Source: Paramacrobiotus metropolitanus (taxonomy: Eukaryota; Tardigrada; Eutardigrada; Parachela; Macrobiotidae). From it: DNA of 64,000 nt. The stretch covers positions 1,674,001 to 1,738,000 of the forward strand of contig NW_026570226.1 of NCBI RefSeq assembly GCF_019649055.1, read 5' to 3'. Under the pieces are notes generated by a model that ran no database searches, had not been told where the DNA came from, and saw only the letters and a program-made list of their open reading frames with translations. Both the position numbers and the translations under genes were made by a program. Shown one piece after another: positions 1 through 60,253 of the stretch; the first letter of the stretch is position 1; the number at the start of each line of letters is the position of its first letter.

Positions 1-3000
1 GCTGTTTTTGGAGGTAAGTTAATGCTGTTTTTTGTTATGATTACTCGATGATTTTAATAGGTATGCGTTTTTGCAGATAAATCTAAAAGAAAAAAGTGAA
101 CAACACGCGGCGATGATCGAATCTCTCATCCCTCGGGAATTTCTCAACATGTTCATTTTTCAAGAAGATGAAGATTTGGATCTGATGATGTCGGAAGTAG
201 TCACAAAGATGCGAGTGCGTGTGCCTTTGAAGCGTGTTCCGATGGGAACGCCAATGAAGCCAGCTGTTGATCCTAATCAGCTGCGACGGTATGCTAAACG
301 TGCCAAAATACTGTACAACCTCAGTTTATAGTTCACTAAATTTTGGTACGTACTCGTAGTCTGATTTTGTGATTATGAAATTCTGTTTATTCTGATTACA
401 GACAAGTCGATTGTCAGACTCTCGTGGCAGATCTTTTTGAAGCCCCGGAACCTGTCTTTGTTTTCCTCTGCAATCGTTTCCAGATGCTCAACATTCCGGT
501 TTACTCTAACTGGAACAATGATTTTTTGGCTAACTTTAAGCGCTCAATCACCGTTAACGGACGTTTGCTTACAAGAAAAATGTTTGCGGGAAAATACAGT
601 GTATGTGTTGTTGTCTGCTTCAGCTACAATTCGGCTTCGGTTAGGTATGCGTTTGGTGTATTATGGAAAGTTTTATTTGTAGTTTTCGTTCCGTACCACG
701 AGATTTAGTTCGAATATTGCCACAACCAACGTGGAAACCCGACCCTCACAACTTTTGGAACGTGTAATGCATCTGCGACGCGGCAGACCCGATGTGGCCC
801 CGTTTTATGCTGAACTAGAGCAGCTGCATACGCGACTTCTTGCGATTACTGAGAAAGAAAAGACAGTTCAGGAAATGGTTACTGCCAAACAGGAGGAGTA
901 CAGCACGGTCAATCGTGAGCTCGGGCAAGGTCGCACTGCTATCCAGGAAGCGGAAAGACTTGCGCGTCGTATTGCAGATACTGAAAAAGAGTAAGTGATA
1001 GTACGTGCTGGTGTAAAGATAGAATGGAATTGGCAAATAATAATAATATTCAGTTATTCTAGAAATCATCGCTTCTGCATTCGATGGGCAATTATTTCTG
1101 TTCATAACTTCATGTGCGTTATAGGGTCGATAAACTGCGAGCAGTCATTTTTGATTTTGCTGCTGAGCAGCGAAAAGTGGCTGAAACGGTGAAAGCACGC
1201 AACACTGCCGCGTTGAAAAAGCTTCTGGGAAATTTCGCCTTAAATGTAAGTATAGGTGTATCAAATGCTTGTGAAAGATTGCAGTTAGCATTGGGTAATG
1301 CTTGTTATTTTCCTTTGGTAGAATGTGCCTGGTGAACTACTGAAAGAGTCTATTACGATCACAGTGGATTATGCGAAAGCACGCGGGGAAATGCAGAAGC
1401 AAGGAAAGACGCTTCGAAAGCACCTGCAAACTATCGCAACCACTTGGGTAACAAAATTCATCACTTTCTATGGAACTAATAAATAATATGTGTGTCTGCT
1501 AATTCAGAATAAATATGGAAAAGAAATTAAACAGCATGACCGGCAACTTCGGACTTACAAAGATGGCCTAAACAATCATATTGAACGCATAAAAGATATC
1601 CCAGGCTCGGCGAACGGTCGTCTCTCTGCTGAAGCCCTACAGGTTAATCTGAACTAAATTTTCTGCAAACTAAAATGTGATGGAGAATCGGCTTTTATTT
1701 AGTTGATTAAATTATTTACTAATTATTTACCTTTCGTTGAAAAAGGAACATTTTTATTGTTGCAGCAATATGTGGCGCTGTCGGCAGATATGCAACAGTT
1801 GGAAAACCTCCAACGTGCGAAGCGTGCCCAACTAAATGCAGCTGGAGACATTAACATTAACGTAAGTCGGTTGTTGCAATCTTCATGGAGGAACTTGCTA
1901 GTGAATGCCATTGTCAGTATTTTACATATACATCGTACCAATACCTGTATTCGCAGGCATATTCTGTGAGAACATGTAGACAATATTCTGGCAGACGTTA
2001 GTACACGTTAATTTGATGCGTTCGTATAATATGATAACTTTGCATGCGTATTTCGTACTGATTATACGGTTTAAGAACGAGTTTTTTTCCTGCAATTTTT
2101 GGATCACAGTTAATGAACTTACTCGAAACAAAGGATCCTGTTTTAGGCTCGTCGCGATCTGGAGAAACACGTTGCCTCCATGCGAAACTTGGAAGAAAAG
2201 ATTGCCGAGAAGAATAGCAGTGTGGAGAAGGAGAAAGAGCGCATGGCTCGGCTGCGCTCCACTTGGATGAACACCATTGATGATTTGGTTACAAAAATTG
2301 GCAACAGCTTTTCTGACTTCTATAAATTGATGAATCTGGCTGGAGATGTCGTGCTTCTGCGCCCGAACAATCCGGATCACTTTGAAAATTACGGATTTGA
2401 GATTAAGGTGTCTTATCGTACCAATCGTCCTCTGGAAACACTGAGCGGCCAGGTGCACAGTGGTGGAGAGAAAAGCGTGGCCACGGCGCTGTATATGCTA
2501 GCCATCCAGGAACTGACCAAATGCCCTTTCCGTGTCGTGGATGAAATCAACCAGGTGGGTTGTTTTTCCTACAAAACATTATCTTCCGATTGGAAGCATA
2601 GAACTGCTAGTAATGCATATTGCTAATATCCCATCCATCGTTAAGACGTTAGTTTGAACTTTCCTTATCGTTTTTGCAGGGGATGGATGCTGACAATGAA
2701 CGACGCGTCTTTAAAATGATTGTGGAAACTGCGAGTCGGTGTGGAGGACAGTATTTCATTCTTAGTCCAAAGGTATTTTTAATTCTGTAATTAAATTTAA
2801 GCACAAACCACAAAGCCTGGATTCGTTTCTGTTAGAAAGTTGCAGTTGCGCCCTTTACGAAAAAAGTTTGCTGTTTGTTTCAGTGACACTTTCAGTTTAT
2901 GCAATTGGTTATTTTAATTGTTCATTAATGATTGTTTTATCTTTCATGTGAAGTGTTGATAATTGCGCATGTTTTGGACGCGATTTGAAGATTTTAAGTG

Positions 3001-15423: not shown

Positions 15424-16809
15424 AACCGTTAACTCGCAATTAATTAAGGCGGGTGCTCGGACTCATGACCATAGTTTCATTTTTCTAACTTACGCGAGTG
15501 CATGATTTATCAAAAACCGCTTAACATTGCATATATATTTCTCATCGTCGAGTGGTTTCTTTGCGCTTTGAGACCATGCATCGATTACCGGGATCTACAG
15601 ATGGTGACTACAAAATCTGAATCCAGTTGCGGAGAACTGGGAATTAGCACCAGCAATCCAATTTCATTTCCAAAACTAAAATTAAAATATATAATGTGTA
15701 TTTCGGGTCACTCCATCTTCAAATGCGTACCAATAAGACAGGTTGGACAGTCCACTGTGTCCAAGCAGATATGACCTCGCAGACGCAAAACCGTTGTCCA
15801 GGCCAATCCAGATACAGTATAACTTTATTTTATATGCGAGGTAGAAAACGTGTTTACGCTTACATTCAAGACTTCGCCTTAGCGGTCTATATGATTTATT
15901 ACCTACTTGAATTAAACTTAAATACTTACCAACGCGGGAATGCGGCATCTGTTTTGGGAACAGCACCAGCTAGAATCGGCTAATTTGGATGAAATGTTCT
16001 GTATGATTAGGATTTAGGCCACCTATTTCCGTAAACGGCTGAGGTTGTGTAATCAGTGCAAATATCTTCTACTTTCATAGTAAACTTGTGATTTTATTAT
16101 ATCGCTAATCTCAATAAAGTGAATACTTATTACAATTCATTTTCATAAATAAGTTAAAATAACTGATGTTATTTTATGGATTATTATGTTTTTTGACCTT
16201 TTTATGACGGCTTGTAAAATGGGCACCCGCCGCGGGAGACATTCACCCTACCGTGCTGCGCTTGTTAATTTGGAAAAAATTGAAGGCAGCGCCATCTCAG
16301 CAAGCAGATCCTTGGCCATGCAGATGGCGCTAAGTTCCTTTGCTTATGATCAACCGCCAATTTTGTGATTGGCATATTCCCCTAATCGCTATTGATTCGC
16401 AATTTTCATTCGCCAGTGTGAACAGGGCGTACATAATACCGCCCACAATATATGCGTAACGCTTGTGCTATGTGCTGGTGCACTTTTACGGCGTAAACCG
16501 TTACGTCACATCTAGTATGTATATTGTACTGTCTAATTTTGTCGTCTGGAATTTTCGTCTTTTTTGTCGGGTTTCTGGAGTATCTCCTCTTGTCTGCGTT
16601 CAGCTGTCAAGAACTACGCCAGTTTTATGGTTCTTCTCAACGTTCAATGATTTTTAAATGTAGTAACAGCGCCGTTTGATTATATTGGCTAATCAAAGTA
16701 CCGACGGTATTTGAAGAGTGGGGAGCTGGTTTTCCCCTTCGGTTTATCTGTGATCGTCTCAAGAGTCGATAAATTCCGTACAAGTTGAGTGGCCACATCT
16801 TCCGATCCA

Positions 16810-19800
16810 ATGGAAACAGACGATGTTGAGTTTCAACCTGTTGGGCAAACGGAAGAGGGCTATTATCTTGACGGGAGTCCGGCGTCCGTTCCCAGTGCGC
16901 TAGAACGACCAAGTATTGTACGTCCGTTTTTTTGTCGAGATTCTGCTACATCATCGGTTCTATTCTTACAACTGGTCGACACGATTCCCTATTCTTTTCA
17001 GGGTCAGAGTGTTGCTCAAGCGGCTAGTTTATTGAATCCGTTCAACTGGTTTAAGAAGGAGCCCTCGCGAAGACCCCCGCCATATTCGCGACCACCTCCG
17101 CGCCGAGCACCGCCACCCAATCGCCCTGCCATCCTCATCCCCCGCCATGCGCCTGCTGAGCCCCCCGAACAGCCCAATAAACGGCGGAAGGTCTATGAAA
17201 TCGAGTTTGGCAAGATCATTAAGCGGGAGGAGTACGGCGAAAATCCGCCGACGAATGGCGCGATGCCACCCAATGTGGACCTCATGGTGGATGAGCGACC
17301 CCCCAAGAGTCCCACTTCGAGTGTTGGTAGTTATTTAACAGAGGACGAAGATTCGGACCTAGAAGTGTTGTCTTCATCTTCGTCGTCGATCGTGAATCGT
17401 CGGAAGAAATTGTCTGAAGGATCAAGAACTTCAGGTAAGTTTTGGTTTTCGCGCCAGTATCTCCTGGGATTTTCTGGCACTATTTTTTAATATTTTATTA
17501 TGATTGTTATTGTATTAAGTATATGTTTTCGCGACACTAGAATTATGAACCTTCTGTTTTAAAGTAGAAGTCTAAAACTTGCAAAAGTTGCCAGTGAGAA
17601 TACTTTTATCGTATTTAGGTTCTTCCCGTGATATATTCGACTCGGACAGGAAACCCAGCTCATCGGGGCTGCCTCGCTTTCCGCTGAGCGAACGACGAGA
17701 TCTCTCTAGTCCATTATCATCTGCATCATCTCGCCAGACTACCGGATTGCCGTCTGTTCTAACGCCTTCGCGATCATCCCAAGTTAGCACTAACGTTCAG
17801 CATCATCCTTTAATGTCTGAGGTGCAATCACCCGTGAGCAGTGCCACATCTGCTACTCCGCCACAAGCCACACTCAACAAGAAGCGCAACTTTCAGGAAG
17901 TCGATAAGGACGAGGCACTGCCGAGTTTCTTTTCCACTTTCCCACGGTCGGCGGACCGAAGATCGTCGGGTGTGCTGCCCGTTTCGCGTTTCGGCTCGCG
18001 AGTATCGGAAGTTCAGGCGGGCAGCAGTGGGAATAGCGGTCCACTGGCGACGAATTTGAGTAAACGCTACCTGGGCAACAGTGGCGTGAAAATCCCGTTA
18101 AATACACAGTCGGACTCGGCCCGCTCCAGTCCCGCGAGCTCCGAGCTGGAGAAAATGTTTCCGCCGTTGAAACGCATGCCCATGCCTGGCCGATCCTCCT
18201 CCCCGCTTCAGTCAGCAGATAAATCGGCGAACCGCAATCGTTTGAAGTTGGAGAATTTGGATTACAAATACGTTGTCCGTTCCCCTGTTGTCCTGCCCAC
18301 AGATGGACAGGATTTTGTGTTTAATGCGTCTATCGTGGTGCCCAGCGGCGCTCTAGCTCAAACAATTGACATTAGTGGATTTTCAACCGAACCCTCCCCC
18401 CGCCATTCACCACCACCGAAAATACATCGTTGTCGTCTTTGTGGCATTTCCGTGAAGAGTGGCGAACAAGAATGTAGTGAATGCACCGGAGCGCGCGCCA
18501 CTCCACAAGATACCGTGCGCATTGAGCACATGGAAAGTAAGAAAAAAGAGACGACTGTTGTTGAGACAGGAGGTTGGACGTGCAAAAACTGCGGTAATCA
18601 TTACTCGGAACGTACTGAGCGCTGTGTGGAGTGCGGCGCGAAGAAACCAGCTGGTAAGGCCATAGAAAAGCCTTCGAGCACGGTTAAACCTTCCACATCA
18701 TCGGAAAGTGTAGAGTCCGTAAAAGTCCCTGCGTCTACTTCGAAGGAGACCGTTCCGCGGACAGGGCAGCCGGAGACTGCGTCTAGAGCTCCATTGGAGG
18801 TAGAAAAAACAACGGAATTCTCCAGTAAAGATGCCAGCGCAACCACTACCGGTAGGTTTTCTAAAATGGTAGTTTGACTAAAATACTCCTGATAATGAAT
18901 ATTGACTTGTTATAGCTGCTCCCTCAACGTTCGTTGATATTTGGTCGAAAAAGAAATCCGGATGGGACTGTCAAGAATGTTTCGTAAGCAATAAGGACGG
19001 CCAGAATGCGTGTGCGTCATGTGGAACACCCCGACCTGGAGCCGCCTCCACTTCTTCCGCTGCTTCATCAGCGGCTGCTGCTCCTGCGCCAAGTTTTTCA
19101 TTTGGATCGGGTGCCATGAATTTTCAGTTCGGCGCTCCGTTAGCAAAGCCAACTGAGCCTTCTGCGCCGGCTTCTACGGCTGCCCCAGTGACAACTGGTG
19201 GATTCTCCTTTGGATCAAAGCCATCGGCATCCACAAACGAGCCGGCAGTGTCCACGGGGATATTTGGCGCTCCGATTACGACATCACTACCTTCGTTCAA
19301 TTTTGGCCAGCCGCCAGTGTCTGGTACGAGTACGGCACCCCCCATTGCGGGTTTCGGGTTTGCTCCAGCTGCACCGATAGCAAACGGTATGTGTATTGTA
19401 GTTATCCTTATATTTGTTTGTTCTGTGGGCAGCAGTCATGGAATTTGGAATACTGAAGTAGTGCAGCAACAAACTATCGATTTTGATTCGATGGCTTCAG
19501 TTGTCTTTTTCCTCTGATCTTACAGTAATTTATAATAATATAATAATCTTACTACAACAATTGTTTCAGGATTACCGGTGTCTGCGCCAAGTAAAGTGGA
19601 CTTTACTCCGGTCATTACCAGTACAAGTTCGACTTTTGATGCTCCCAGGCCGTCATCAACGGGCTCTGTTTTTGGTGGATTCAGTCTTGGCACCGCAGCG
19701 GCGCCTAGCGAGCCTGCCAAGCCAGCATTTCAGTTTGGATTGAATGCGCCGTCTCAAAGCTCTGGTACGATTTGCAATGAAACTGTTACATTTTATTTTT

Positions 19801-29500: not shown

Positions 29501-29758
29501 CTGTAAACCTTGAAATTTATGTCTGCTCAGTCTGCTGTATACAACAGGAGCATCATTTTTAGGTTCAGCTTCCTAGTCTCTGTTTCTAGCAACAACAATT
29601 GTCGTGCATTTAGGTGGGATTCGTCGTTGCGTTTGTGTTGCACCTGGTGTCGATCGTCGTTGCTCGGATATATTTTGCTATCATCAACCATGCAAGTTGA
29701 CACTGTAACGTACGGCATACCGTAACATTGGCACCTTTGGACTATTCGGGCTACAAAT
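26551..29758. other. 3.2 kb intergenic
   Basis: Contains a moderately GC-rich open stretch at 27160-27378 (ends at a TGA but has no ATG until its last few codons and no acceptor), a GC-rich block at 27640-28020 (listed separately) and a 26-bp near-palindrome TTGTACTAGTAC-ga-... at 28928-28953. No gene could be supported. Confidence 0.45.
27640..28020. promoter_or_regulatory. GC-rich non-coding block with AP-1-like site and 17-bp duplication
   Basis: GC content rises sharply against the surroundings without a plausible ORF. It contains a perfect TGAGTCA (27700-27706) and two adjacent 17-bp copies of TCGTCGCG(C/T)TCGGAATT (27868-27884 and 27885-27901). It could be a promoter or enhancer for the orphan gene starting at 29759, or a distal element; this is inference only. 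Confidence 0.3.
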
Positions 29759-31627
29759 ATGGATTCTTTGCCACACTCGGTTAAACCATCCCCAATGGCC
29801 AGTAAACCTCCGAAACGCCAGAAACGGGCAAAACCTGCCGGTACAAAAACCGCGAAAGCTCTCTCGCCACTTCATCTGTTCTACAAAATGGCCGAATTCG
29901 TTAAGGAGTCCTCTCCCGATGCCGAAGGCCCCGTATGGAAGAAGGACGTTGATCGGGGAGAAGGTATCATTCTGTTCTACCAGCTGGACTTTTCTGGTCC
30001 ACAAGGACCTCAAGTGGCCCGCAGTGTCAGGATCCAGCGCGCGCCCGCTGATACTATTCACACTGGAGCACATCTCATTGCGTACGTGTTCCTTGGTCGA
30101 GAGGCCGTGTTTTCGGATGTCCTGCAGAGCATTCCCTTTGAGAATCCCATCCGCAATATGTTAGATCTGATCAAGATTTTGGATTTGCTCGGTGTTTTCA
30201 CCACGGATTCGTTGAAAATCAGCGATCCGTATGGGCTGGTGGACACTGCCGACGTCAAGACCGAAGCCGGTCCTGAACCGAAGGACAGAGCTGGTTATGC
30301 TCCGGAGCAGGTATTGCATCCGTTCGGGCTTCTGGACACTAACGGTGCAAAACACGAAGTCAAACATGAGCCGATGGATGAGACTTGTCGTATTCCAGAG
30401 CAGTTGTCGTATCCGTTCGGGTTTGTGGGCACTAATGCCTTCAACACTGAAGTCAAACGTGAGCCGATGGATGAAGTTTGTCGCACTCGGCAGCATATTT
30501 CGTGGATGGAGGGGTACGTTACCGTACTTAAGTACTAGAAATTTGAAGAACTATTTCTAAGGAGTGCGGTCGGAATACTTATCGCCCAGTGTTGACACGG
30601 GGTTTTTAATTCTAAATTAATTATTAATGGCTTTGTTCTTGCAGTTTTTTTAAAAAAACATTTGTAACCCCCAGGTTATAATCAATAAACGTTATATCTG
30701 TATGTCGCATTTCATTAAATTTAATTGCGTTTCCGAATTTATGTTAAGCGAAGCAAGCATAATAAACGGTTATTTGTTTAGTTGGTTGTAAGTGACTGTT
30801 ACCTTTTCTATAAGAATGTAGTAAAAGACTGCTTATGCTGTATTTTTCTTATGGATTGTGCATTTGTTTTTGCTTTGACTTGTACACTTATTTGATAAGT
30901 ATGTACTCAAAATCGGGCTTGTGGTATGAGTACTTAATTCAATCGTTTCCGATGTTTTAGGTTACCCATGCATATGAATAATTCTGTCCCAGCTGGCTTC
31001 GGCGATAACCCTGCATCACGAAGTGCTAGCACATTTTCAGAAAACAGTGCTCCAGCTCTGGAAAATGCGGTAGTGCCTGCTGGACCATCGAACGTTTCTA
31101 ATGTGGGTATGGAACTGAACTTGCCATTGAACGGAAAGAAGGGAAAAGGAATAGTCAAAAAGAAGAAACGCAAAATTAAGGCGGTGCATGGGTTGCTAAA
31201 TGGAAACTTAGTTGTTGCGCCGAATTTGTCGCGGAATTCTGGTGCTTCGTCTCCCGAACAAGAAACATCCCGATTTTCATATAACGGATTGATGATGTTT
31301 TGCCAGGGACCACTTAGAACGGCGGTCGAGGATTTTCTCAATTGTGTGCGTAGCCGGAAGGAGGAAGTTAAGCGAAAAGGACGAGCACGCCATGGACGAA
31401 AGATTCTATTCCGCAACAATCCTGAGTTGCGCCGAACGATGTGTCAACTGGAGTATGAAATGCGTAGAAGAGCAACCGACACCAAATACCAACAGGATCG
31501 GAATGAACTGCTGCGCCGCTTGAGTTTATATGCTGGAGTAAAATTTGCGACATTAAGACAGAACTTGAACAAGTCATGCCACCAGGCAGCCGATGATTCG
31601 ATTCGCTCAAGCCGAAATGTACAATAG
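29759..31627 (+). CDS. Unrecognised nuclear-looking protein with 31-residue triple repeat
   Basis: I do not recognise this protein. Two exons, 29759-30513 and 30961-31627, join in phase (GG|G) with a good acceptor (GATGTTTTAG) and sum to 1422 nt, 473 residues. The N-terminus is basic (KPPKRQKRAKPAG). A globular-looking region of about 110 residues follows. Then come three repeats of exactly 31 residues (156-186, 187-217, 218-248), each opening (D/H/Y)P(Y/F)G(L/F) and carrying VKxE, twice as VK(H/R)EPMDE. After the junction there is a Ser/Asn/Pro-rich linker, a strong nuclear-localisation-type run (KKGKGIVKKKKRK) and a basic helical C-terminal region. Without the intron removed, the first exon would stop at 30538. 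The VKxE motifs fit the SUMO-conjugation consensus, which would suit a nuclear protein, but no function is claimed. Confidence 0.72.
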
Positions 31628-54646: not shown

Positions 54647-57364
54647 ATGTCACGAGCGCGCGCACAGGCTCAGCCAACGCGCATACAGCCAGCTCGTAAT
54701 GCGACTTCCAGTTTAAATGGACTGGAATCCCAGATCAGCGAAGTTACCCTTGTGGATCCGGAGGAGGAGAAGAAGCAGAAGCGCTTAACGAAGCAGGAAT
54801 CCACCCTTCAAAAATGCTTGGCCAATGTCAGTGAAACACAAGGTTTAACTCATGACATCTTGATGCGATGTGGACAGTTAAATAGTGTTCAACAACTGCT
54901 CAGCGTCGGAGCAGACTCCCTGGAAGACGCAGCGCTTAATCAAATCAAAGCAGAATGGAAGGCAACCAAACATGACGACATTGGTAAGCGAATGTGTTTC
55001 TTTGGACAACTAAAAATTTTGTGAAGTTTTATGGCTAGTTTTTAGGGGTAAAAATATTTTTGTTTCTTACTGCTGTAGCGGATTTACCTTTTACATTGCG
55101 ACTCTTACGCTGTTGCAATATTTATTTATTTCAATCCGTCCGTGTTGTGGCTGTAATTTCTTTTGTTATTTGGATGTCTTCGGCTTTTTAGGAAATTATA
55201 GAAATTTGATCACCTGCATTAAAAATTTTTTACATTTCAGTCGCTATTCTGAGGCGCGTTGTGCTCTGTAAAGAGAATTATCAGCCGAGGACCGCCAGCA
55301 ACATCGGAACCGATCCGTCTCTCATTTCTAGCCATAACACTCTCGCTGAAGCTTTGGTGTCGTTTCTCGAGGGCAGCTGGATGATTTTTCGGATATTCCG
55401 AAATATTTCTAGGCCTGCCCTGGATGATAGTAACTACTGCGCTACCGTGATAATGCCTTGTGTTGTGGATCTCCATAAGTTGGCCAAGTTTGTGCATTGT
55501 AGTGTCAAGCGAAATCTTTTGCGCCTGCTTGTTGGATTGTGGGCTCATTTGACTGCGATGTTTAATGGGCCTTTTTATAATGAGATCATGAGGGAAATAT
55601 ATAAACTTTTCTCGACATGCGAAGATTATGCCCAGCAACTACAACTTTGTGTCATGATGGGGTTTTTGTGCCAGAAATCTGTCACCATTGTTCGCGCGAT
55701 TGGATACAAAGTGGGTTTGCGCATGTGGTTAAAAGGTACGTTTTGTCTTCCACAATTTTTGTGTCGCCACTATTTATAAGTCACATTTAAGTTCATTTTA
55801 CGATAAGTACGAGTATAGGTTTTGAATATACGGTTGACTTGAAAAAGATTTTTCATTTTTTCTTGCGACTTCTGAGACATTTTACGGTGCTTTCTGCAAG
55901 CCTAAAAAAATGCACATTTAGGTATAACTCGATAAGTAGAGAAGTCGGAAATTAAAATATTGCTTCTTGTTGTTGTTATGCATCGTTATTCAGATAGGGA
56001 TAAGTTTCTCTTGGCTTACGTTAATTTGAACGCCGCGATACCTATCAATGTTTCTCGGGAGATCTTGATAATTGGTTTGATTTTTCTTGCTAGATTTCGT
56101 GTCTATTTTCCGCAATTGCTCACCGACGGATTCGCCGATTCCCAACTTTGCCTACGAGGCGGTTAATTTCACTAATGAGCGTCGCGGGATTCACCGCAAA
56201 GTTTTCTCCTTCCGCTTGAATACTCCTTGTTACGCATCTTCCGACCAAAGTGATTTTCCACCGGTTCCTGTTTATAACCCTTTTATTTCCAACGATGAAG
56301 CGCCGGATCAGTGGTGTTTGAGCTTTAGCTTAGGCTCACAAACGATGTGTTTTGAACTGGAAGGGACAGCCGGCCGATTTTTTGTTTGGATACCCTTTGA
56401 CGACATTGTCGTGGTGGACGTTTCATCGGAGCACGACAGCGTTATCCTTCAAATGATTTTTACCAAAGCCTTGTCGGAATATTACGACGGGAATTGTGCC
56501 AATGTCATTAATCCCGTTGGATTTTGTGATACCGTTAGCTTCCATTTGGGTGGTGCGCTTGCAAATTTAGGATTGCTGGAAAAAGCCCTTCAGCGTTGTT
56601 TTGGGCACCGTTGTGGAACGGCGACGTTTCATGGAGAATGGAATGTACCGGAGCTGGGAAAGACCAATAACCCGTTCTATCGAATAAAGAAATCCCTCGG
56701 AGTCGTTGCGGAAGCGTCAGATAAGATCGACGAAAACGATGCGTGTGTGCTTGTGAGAGAAACCATCGTCGAACGACGCTTTGCGGGTGAGAAAAAGGTA
56801 GAAGGAAAGAGAAGTCGCGCGCAATCGCAAGCTTCAACATCCGCTGATGTTTCCTGTGTTGAAATCTCATCCGACGATAAACCGACCGCACAACGAAACA
56901 GCAACCCAGAAATTACTACACCGACGATTTCACCCAGTAAGAGTGTTATCCTGGATGATTGCGAGTCAGCGGCGCTTAGTCCCATCCAACCGAACGATTT
57001 GGCTCCGTCCGATGACGATGATTGTATTTCTCCCGCTGGTGTCCTTCACTTGCCAGATACAGATCTCACATCGCAGGAATTTGAAGACATGTTACATAGC
57101 TCGCGTGGCGGCATGTCGATCAACGTTAATGGCCAGTCATTAGTTTGTACACCCATGAAAGGTGTCAATGCACCTATCACGGTAACTTCAGTTTGTCAAC
57201 CTGCTGCTGTCAGTACGAGCAACCGAGCTAATCGAGACCGTTTGCCTCTGGAGCAGATCTCCAACGAGGCCAATGCGATGGAAGCTGGGAAACGTCTTCG
57301 AAGTCGGACGACCGGAAATTCGTCTACACAGAGTATTTCAGCTGATGTTGTCACTCTGGATTGA
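54647..57364 (+). CDS. SYCP2-like meiotic chromosome axis protein, without C-terminal coiled coil
   Basis: Exons 54647-54983, 55241-55735 and 56094-57364 total 2103 nt, 700 residues. The first half is helical and matches the ARM-like domain of vertebrate SYCP2 (around 112-280: EIMREIYKLFSTCEDYAQQL, VMMGFLCQ). Then FTNERRGIHRKVFSF aligns with the NGMLGDKRRVFTF block, and QWCLSFSLGSQTMCFELEG with FWIDFNLGSQTLSFYIAG, which opens the Spt16M-like domain; the following strands (FVWIPFDDIVVVDVSSEHDS, LQMIFTKAL) fit as well. The rest is Ser/Asp/Pro-rich, low complexity, with SUMO-interaction-like VEISSDD and ends in SADVVTLD. SYCP2 links the chromosome axis to the synaptonemal complex. Human SYCP2 is about 1530 residues and ends in a coiled coil that pairs with SYCP3; none is seen here. 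Confidence 0.75.
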
Positions 57365-57950
57365 CGCAAAAATTTATGCGGTTGTTGTTTTTTTCAGTAA
57401 ATGCGCTGTCGTTTCATGGTACTGAATTGGATATAATCGTTTTTGTACAGATTTATGGGTGAAGTTTGCGGAACCTGATAAAGTTTTCTAAATTTGTATC
57501 CTAGCGGTTGTTTGTCTTGATCAAAAGTTGATGCGTCGAACCATTTCTGTGACACGGATGGCCAGTTTTTAAAATGTACGGAATTTTACGCTAGGAAGAA
57601 GAGTTGAACATCAACGCGTTATTAGCGGCTGTTAATAGGCTGTTTTCGTAAAATGGCATTGTTGCGTGGGAGGAAATGTCCGCAGACAATGTAGCGATGA
57701 TAGGGTGATCTTTTTCTCGCTCGAATGCTCTAGTTGGTAAAGCGGAAATAACACCAGTTCATAAACGCTATGTGCGTTATTACTTCGACGTACACAACGA
57801 AATGCTTGGATAATCACAGCGGCCAAACTTCACCCTGGCCACCCAAACGAAGCCACCGGTACAAGTTTAAAAACATCTACGCACGAAGAAAATTTGTTGT
57901 AGCTCACGTTAACTGCGCGCGGTACAACCGAAGCGACCTTTCGCATTCGA
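57365..57950. other. Intergenic between SYCP2-like and secreted-protein genes
   Basis: SYCP2-like 3' UTR and promoter of the next gene. A tRNA A-box-like TAGTTGGTAAAGCGG occurs near 57731 but no tRNA fold follows. Confidence 0.5.
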
Positions 57951-59582
57951 ATGCACGAGTATTTCACCATGATCAGTATTGTGTTTCTGCTCCTTCTGAC
58001 ACGATGGGCTACGGCTCAGTTACAAGGTCGTATGGACATTCCCATTGGAGTTCCGGATTTGGATGACAAATTTTCCAGAGGATTGGCTAACTACATCGGC
58101 ATACCGGCCCTCCCGGGTGCCAGCACCGGACAGTACGGCGATCCTATTTCGCTAACCGGAAGGAGTAATGTGGGTGCCGACTCTTCCAATAGTCTGACGT
58201 ACAATGATTTTCCTTCGCTACCGGGACTGCGAAACACCAACAGAGCAGGAATGACAAAATGGTATGGTCCCGACTTTGCACCGCCTGTACCAAACAGTGG
58301 CTCCATGATGATGCCTAATATGCAACCACCGCCACCACCCATGCAAACGCCCCAAAACCAAGTCAACGGGCCGGTAAATGACGGATGTAAGTGGCAAAAA
58401 AACTACAGGAATCTTGCTTACATTAGTCAGAAAACTAAATAAATATTTCGAACTTTATACTGTATATTATTTACTTACAATTAGGGATATATCGACAGCG
58501 GTAATCGATCAACAAGATGTTAACAGCGTAATTAAAATACCTCGTATTTTCAGTTATTGTTACATATGGTTCGTTTTGTTGCGATACGACCATTCCAGTT
58601 ATTAAAAGCGCTCGATAAGTTACTTAGCCTAGCGGTACAAGGAAACTTGATTAGAATTCAATTTTCAAATTTGCAACCGCAATAGCATCTAACATAATTC
58701 TTATAAAAGTATCATTCTGTGTTAAACGTGATTACAGAAAAAAAAAATTTGTATTCTGATAACAAAACCTTTTTTGACCTTTGTAGCTGTGCAAGTGACG
58801 GATCTCAGTTGCCAGAAGCCAAGGGCAGTTATCGGCATGTCCAACGATCGTAACCACTGGTTATCCACGGTTGAATGCGAATGCCGACCGATCAGTGATT
58901 CCACCGCCATGCCGCAGTTTTCGTGCTATTCGCTGTGTGATGGACCACCTCGGGATCAACGTTGTGAAGCCAGTTTTTCGATTTTGAGCTCGTGTCCTTT
59001 ATATAAAAACTGTCGTAAGCTCCGATGGTCGCTTCGTAGCATGCTGGGTGTACATTGCACTAAAACTGACGCAGACAATGTAGAATGCTAGCAAAGTATA
59101 AGTGATGCATAATAATAATTTTTCTAATTGTAGAAAACTGGACTCAGTCTAATGACACAGACAGCGGTGCTATTTCGTGCCGTGTGGGCAATCCGGTGCC
59201 GGAAGCCGTGTGCTGGATATTGGCCAGCAGTATGTTGCGCGATGATGATCGCCCTTTACGACCGGCATTCTATGCTAACGCGGCAACAGGTTGTTACATG
59301 GCCTGTTTGTGTGGAAACGATGGAACTGTGGCTGGAGAAATCCAGTGTCTAGATCGTCCTACCAGTCACTGGAGGTAAAGCCATTAAATTATACATATTG
59401 TACATACTGTCGAAATCGGTATTGTACAGCATAAATAAAGAGTACCTAATAATAGTAAAGATAGTAATAATGATGCAAGTTGGAGTTTTCCGTATTCGAT
59501 CCGACTAAATTTTAATGTTTGTCGTTGTAGGTTTCCCGTATATCCTCGCAACAGAAAATTTAATTTCCCTGCCCAATTCTAA
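57951..59582 (+). CDS. Secreted cysteine-rich protein of unknown function
   Basis: I do not recognise this family. Exons 57951-58386, 58787-59014, 59134-59374 and 59531-59582 join in phase and sum to 957 nt, 318 residues. A signal peptide is clear (MISIVFLLLLTRWATA, cleavage probably before QLQG). The mature N-terminal half is Gly/Pro/Asn-rich without cysteine, with a PPPPP run. The C-terminal half, encoded by exons 2 and 3, has 14 cysteines (8 + 6), an even number fitting disulfide pairing, including CEC, CYSLC and CYMACLC clusters. A short basic tail (FPVYPRNRKFNFPAQF) comes from exon 4; if the last intron is retained the protein ends after HWR at 59378. The protein is presumably extracellular. 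Confidence 0.7.
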
Positions 59583-60253
59583 GGCTTTTGTCATGTATCG
59601 CCATGCAAGTACACTTTTGAATTTGTTTTCTGTTATATTAAGCAAATGATGTTGAGATCTCTCAGTTCAGTTCTTGATGGTACGCTATACATCAGCAATT
59701 CGGTGCTGACGGAAATTGACAGGAGATTGTTTGCTGTCAGTCGTTAAGCTGCAATGAGTAAGTCTTGCTTGGTTTTGCATACGGACTTAGAAACCATAGT
59801 GCACTTTAATTCCTAGTTAAAGCGAAATTTTTAATGCCGGTTTGACACGTGTTTACCCACACAAAGTGCTCACGAAGCGTCGAAGCCTCACAATGATGGA
59901 ACAAGATAGAAGATTATATAACCCAAAACGATTAATACGTAAGTTGCAAGTGGTGCAAAAAACTTTTTTTTTGGTTGGATAACGTACTCTAACCTTTATG
60001 AATATCATCCTTTGTAATTTTTGGTACCCCAAAAGTTTTTACGTATGTAATCAGCACGGATGTTATTTGCCCTTTTCTGCTAAAAGACGTGTGATTCAGG
60101 CAGCCATATTCTACTGATCTACGTTTCCAACTTTCCGAAACTAAACAGAAACTTCGCCTTGTTATGCGGATCTGTATTCACTATGCAGCAGTGCCGGCTT
60201 ATTAATAAGTGTTTACATCACACCAAATGATAAAGCAGATAAGAAATACTGAT
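59583..60253. other. Convergent 3' flanks of secreted-protein gene and ACSF2
   Basis: AT-rich spacer; no coding exon, RNA gene or repeat could be supported. Confidence 0.5.

Follow-up and report, generated by a model that had tools for sequence, protein, structure and literature searches.

A candidate divergent SYCP2-type protein lacking a coiled coil in the eutardigrade Paramacrobiotus metropolitanus

The analysed window is a stretch of 64 kb from the genome of P. metropolitanus. At 54647-57364 on the forward strand it contains a three-exon gene with consensus splice sites, whose product comprises 700 residues. The reading frame was kept open by just one GT/AG combination among those tested, and the length given in a preliminary description of this DNA was thereby confirmed. 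The same description had placed the DNA in a probable protostome, which is correct, the host being a eutardigrade. The product of exon 1 has a basic, disordered N-terminus followed by a helix-prone stretch, and exon 3 by itself forms an open frame of 427 codons. The positions of the exons and of the features discussed below are collected in Table 1. Right behind this gene, at 57957-59600 on the same strand, lies the next gene, encoding a cysteine-rich secreted protein with a signal peptide. Elsewhere in the window we noticed a C-terminal fragment resembling SMC5 (SGGEKSVATALYMLAIQEL...FRVVDEINQ; 2147-2626, forward strand) and a multi-exon gene resembling NUP153, with zinc fingers of the RanBP2 type and with FG repeats (16789-19517, forward strand). 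A predicted protein at 29726-30538 (forward strand) contains a unit of about 35 residues (PYG/PFG...DT...VKxEPMDE) in three imperfect copies, with SUMO-consensus-like VKxEP motifs; the copies were not picked up as a DNA tandem repeat.

Table 1. Parts of the three-exon gene and of its product, with positions in the window.
Feature	Position	Strand	Basis
Exon 1, residues 1-112	54647..54983	+	Frame starts at its first ATG; donor GTAAGC
Exon 2, encoding residues 113-277 (helical; possible ARM-like region)	55241..55735	+	Acceptor TTTCAG, donor GTACGT
Residues 227-277, N-terminal part of the SYCP2/SYCP2L alignment (last ARM helices)	55582..55735	+	hhalign, Smith-Waterman, alignment; shared DY..Q, LC, W
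Exon 3, encoding residues 278-700 and ending with the TGA stop; putative PH-like domain (SLD) followed by the tail	56094..57364	+	Acceptor TTGCTAG
Residues 279-402, C-terminal part of the SYCP2/SYCP2L alignment	56096..56467	+	hhalign, Smith-Waterman, alignment
Block NERRGIHRKVFSF, residues 305-317, aligned with GDKRRVYTF of the mouse protein	56174..56212	+	BLAST and alignment
Block FSLGSQTMCFELEG, residues 355-368, aligned with FNLGSHTLSFYIAG of the mouse protein	56324..56365	+	Pairwise alignments
Residues 422-452, candidate strand TVSFH and helix ending RCFGH	56525..56617	+	By eye and AlphaFold2; weak
Residues 453-700, Ser/Asp/Thr/Pro-rich tail without coiled coil	56618..57361	+	Heptad filter and composition
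AGTAAA, variant polyadenylation signal, 32 bases past the stop	57396..57401	+	Weak

In vertebrate SYCP2 and SYCP2L the last ARM helices are followed by a PH-like (Spt16M-like) domain, and residues ~227-402 of the tardigrade protein are colinear with these two parts. The mouse SYCP2 reference sequence was taken from PDB entry 5IWZ. The human SYCP2L query was a sequence checked by its Pfam scores only; SYCP2_ARLD matched it with 276 bits and SYCP2_SLD with 175 bits, and therefore it is at least a genuine sequence of the family. The match to mouse SYCP2 had a Smith-Waterman score of 65 against a shuffle mean of ~38, and the match to human SYCP2L, over residues 227-402, a score of 83. The corresponding Gumbel p values, 5e-4 and 4e-6, go beyond pairwise chance and give moderate support; they fit a single comparison named in advance and not thousands of families, and SYCP2 was picked after the sequence had been seen. 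With hhalign, a two-sequence profile of SYCP2 and SYCP2L matched residues 227-382 in an unchanged register (P 2.2e-4, 132 columns, 24% identity). The two sequence blocks named in the preliminary description were indeed found to be colinear with mouse SYCP2, inside a longer match that begins in the helical region. Residues 422-452 were placed by eye, weakly, where the SLD of SYCP2 ends (LLFYFDES...KKVFGG).

The foremost competing explanation is that the gene has nothing to do with SYCP2 and encodes a rapidly evolving tardigrade protein made up of a helical region, a domain rich in beta structure and a disordered tail; its two blocks would then match SYCP2 by chance and owe their recognition to an implicit post hoc comparison with many families. 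We regard this as a serious possibility, although the probability we give it falls below even. It is favoured by the lack of a significant database-level match of any kind. The Pfam search of the protein returned nothing at E<=10, though Pfam includes both SYCP2_ARLD and SYCP2_SLD, the PDB sequence search nothing but one chance match, and the NCBIfam search nothing worth noting. At Z=20,000 phmmer gave E 41 for SYCP2 and E 2 for SYCP2L, and the two-sequence HMM gave E 1.9, none of which is significant at the scale of a proteome. Local hhalign in the other direction, with the protein as query, gave no meaningful match (P 0.71). Moreover, shuffled sequences reached the score obtained with mouse SYCP2: the maximum among 3000 shuffles was 65, a tie, and that among 1000 local ones was 66. 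Identities were enriched at columns conserved between SYCP2 and SYCP2L, with odds of 2.3-3.8, a range that realigned shuffles span in most settings. Against a chance match stands the score of 83 with SYCP2L, which exceeded every shuffle (maxima of 61, of 65 with local shuffling, and of 71 among another 1000 shuffles). In addition, the match to both paralogues kept one register as it passed from the last helices into and across the PH-like domain, and the reversed protein sequence scored only at the level of the shuffles. Profile comparison, called for in the preliminary description, gave a match to the two-sequence profile with hhalign and none in Pfam. The assignment to the SYCP2 family made there is the most suitable reading at present, supported by pairwise and hhalign matches that are weak but mutually consistent, while a significant database match did not emerge.

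Structure prediction had also been called for, and it did not yield a SYCP2 fold. Single-sequence AlphaFold2 modelled the helical part with six helices at pLDDT 45 and the beta part at pLDDT 34; in the latter model a strand at 147-151 and a helix at 155-173 (model numbering), corresponding to residues 422-452, reached a pLDDT of ~52 at best. The ARM-PH fold was not recovered in these single-sequence models, and the Foldseek matches were meaningless; we discarded them because the models were too poor for a comparison of folds. As to the ARM-like region of the preliminary description, it is helical and, in residues 227-277, aligned with the last ARM helices, and its identity as ARM repeats was left unconfirmed by the six-helix model.

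The genome (169.8 Mb in 533 contigs) was searched in six frames, exon by exon, with an insensitive first look. The SYCP2-like gene is single copy; CAHS, a tardigrade desiccation protein, gave at least 20 matches with a best E of 3e-69, which marks the host as a eutardigrade. Searches with SYCP2 or SYCP2L as query missed the gene at 54647-57364. The PF18584 profile found nothing in the genome, and the PF18581 profile gave no match over the cut-off. The best PF18581 candidate was rejected after its translation had been read by eye as a CLASP-like HEAT protein. The sole genome match to mouse SYCP2 was also rejected, since it lies inside a BTB-domain gene and runs across a stop. Apart from these two, the matches were chance frames, and no better SYCP2 candidate was obtained in the genome.

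SYCP2 pairs with SYCP3 through a C-terminal coiled coil. We looked for such a coil with a simple heptad and helix filter over 28-residue windows, using human SYCP3 for comparison. The filter was passed by 44 of 209 windows in SYCP3, by one of 221 in the tail and by none in the N-terminal 120 residues. For the genomic gene model this agrees with the preliminary description, according to which the protein has a disordered tail and no coiled coil: residues 453-700 hold no heptad stretch. Directly downstream, before the next gene, there is no open frame to supply a coil. The 600 bases past the gene hold repeated stops in all three forward frames, and therefore an assembly frameshift near the stop would not uncover one. 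An ordinary full-length SYCP2, in which far-off 3' exons or an alternative splice leaving exon 3 would provide the coil, is thus an improbable reading. Donors within exon 3 are possible on the genomic sequence alone, and the silkworm protein, 1800 residues long, carries a coil at its C-terminus (PMC10151401); against this stand the frames shut repeatedly within 600 bases, the secreted-protein gene that begins at ~57957 on the same strand, the polyA-like AGTAAA past the stop, and an exon 3 that runs for 1.27 kb to a natural stop.

Homologues of SYCP3 and HORMAD, for which the preliminary description had proposed a search, were not found in the six-frame searches, which are too insensitive to show absence; a short divergent coil could be missed. 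Cor1 and SYCP3 queries against the genome gave nothing convincing. The frame matched by Cor1 read as Caprin by eye and was rejected as SYCP3, a match to the SYCP3 query was rejected as a Polinton-like DNA polymerase B element, and the other matches were weak or due to chance. At G000:C7:2239000-2243000, frames were noted by eye that resemble a DNA polymerase of family B, from an element of the Polinton/Maverick type. The HORMA profile gave one match over the cut-off and two weaker, unconvincing fragments. The former (G000:C47:816500-823500) was rejected as a meiotic HORMAD, since it reads as MAD2 by eye, and the HORMAD1 query gave nothing in the genome. A SPO11-like gene is present at about 410560 of G000:C66, and therefore meiotic break formation is likely retained.

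Judging from the sequence comparisons, we lean slightly towards the product of 54647-57364 being a divergent SYCP2-type protein. The balance is shifted towards homology because the matched region, the last ARM repeats together with the PH domain, is the most diagnostic part of SYCP2-type proteins in a systematic survey (PMC8131943). Weak single-sequence scores are expected in a protostome, because silkworm SYCP2, which was located on pachytene axes by antibody staining, was likewise missed when mammalian queries were run in blastp and took PSI-BLAST to find (PMC10151401). The protein was not classed as a full member of the family because the defining coiled coil is missing from the combination of ARM, PH and coiled coil; the gene is probably a SYCP2-like variant short of full membership.

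Whether this variant is a eutardigrade meiotic axis protein, reduced to an N-terminal docking module and a disordered tail, we judge to be evenly balanced. The docking module would consist of the helical ARM-like region and the PH/Spt16M-like domain, with a fold deduced from the alignments. By analogy with SYCP2 and Red1, this ARM-PH module may dock on meiotic chromosomes via cohesin or chromatin, and a HORMAD may be recruited by a short motif, situated either just past the PH domain or within the tail. Having no coiled coil of its own, the protein would not build filaments of the SYCP2:SYCP3 type and would thus be an adaptor and not a filament subunit. Filament formation would then be absent or provided by another protein, so that, as the preliminary description suggested, the axis of this lineage may be assembled differently or receive its coil from a partner. 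In fungi, plants and mammals, building filaments through a coiled coil is considered one of the central tasks of axis proteins (PMC6349405). A SYCP2-derived ARM-PH protein acting outside the meiotic axis, at centromeres (as SYCP2L or KKT17/18), in chromatin or in DNA repair, would fit the loss of the filament-forming coil and the repurposing of relatives such as kinetoplastid KKT16-18 and centromeric SYCP2L (PMC8131943), but we consider it unlikely, as there is no positive evidence for it and the genome search gave no second, canonical SYCP2 that would free this copy.

If the axis-protein reading is true, a tardigrade SYCP2 cut down to its docking module separates docking from filament building in nature. 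To our knowledge, nematodes and Drosophila are without coiled-coil axis proteins of the fungal, plant or mammalian kind. It is conceivable, though we are doubtful, that tardigrades keep only the ARM-PH half of SYCP2, lost the coiled coil together with SYCP3 and build their axis in another way, being intermediate between arthropods, with full SYCP2 and SYCP3, and nematodes, in which HOP1 is present and SYCP2 and SYCP3 are absent (PMC8131943). The tardigrade protein could in that case mark a step towards the loss seen in nematodes. SYCP2 in protostomes is itself already known, from Crassostrea (PMC4132317), from Lepidoptera and Diptera (PMC8131943) and from the silkworm (PMC10151401), and an older survey did not find SC-like proteins in Tardigrada (PMC4132317). 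A member of the SYCP2 family without the coiled coil, in a tardigrade, could be new.

Mouse SYCP2 (PDB 5IWZ) consists of the ARLD and the SLD, a closure motif at 395-414 and a C-terminal coiled coil. The tardigrade protein resembles it in having a helical region ahead of a beta domain, in the position of the match within the protein (~300 residues precede the SLD, compared with ~275 in the mouse) and in the blocks KRRVYTF / RRGIHRKVFSF and F.LGS.T..F..G. It differs in having only ~22% identity over the aligned part and two insertions in the SLD, and in its length of 700 residues against 1500. It also differs in being without a coiled coil and in that a HORMAD-recruiting closure motif, which is highly degenerate, was not identified. 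The best pairwise match was obtained with human SYCP2L. SYCP2L is shorter than SYCP2, as is the tardigrade protein. In contrast to the latter, it is a vertebrate-specific paralogue with clear Pfam matches, and it is counted among full-length duplications (PMC8131943).

Among protostomes, Bombyx mori SYCP2 (1800 aa; PMC10151401) has the ARM-PH domain proposed for the tardigrade protein, compared by description, and is likewise invisible to blastp with mammalian SYCP2. Unlike the tardigrade protein it possesses both a closure motif and a coiled coil at the C-terminus, and it coexists with SYCP3 and HOP1 (PMC10151401). Red1 is similar in its N-terminal ARM-PH module followed by a disordered linker, whereas Red1/Rec10 and ASY3 all differ by their C-terminal coiled coils. 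In seed-plant ASY3 the ARM-PH part was lost and the coil kept, the opposite of what we propose here (PMC8131943); should orthologues confirm the present reading, the two proteins would mirror each other.
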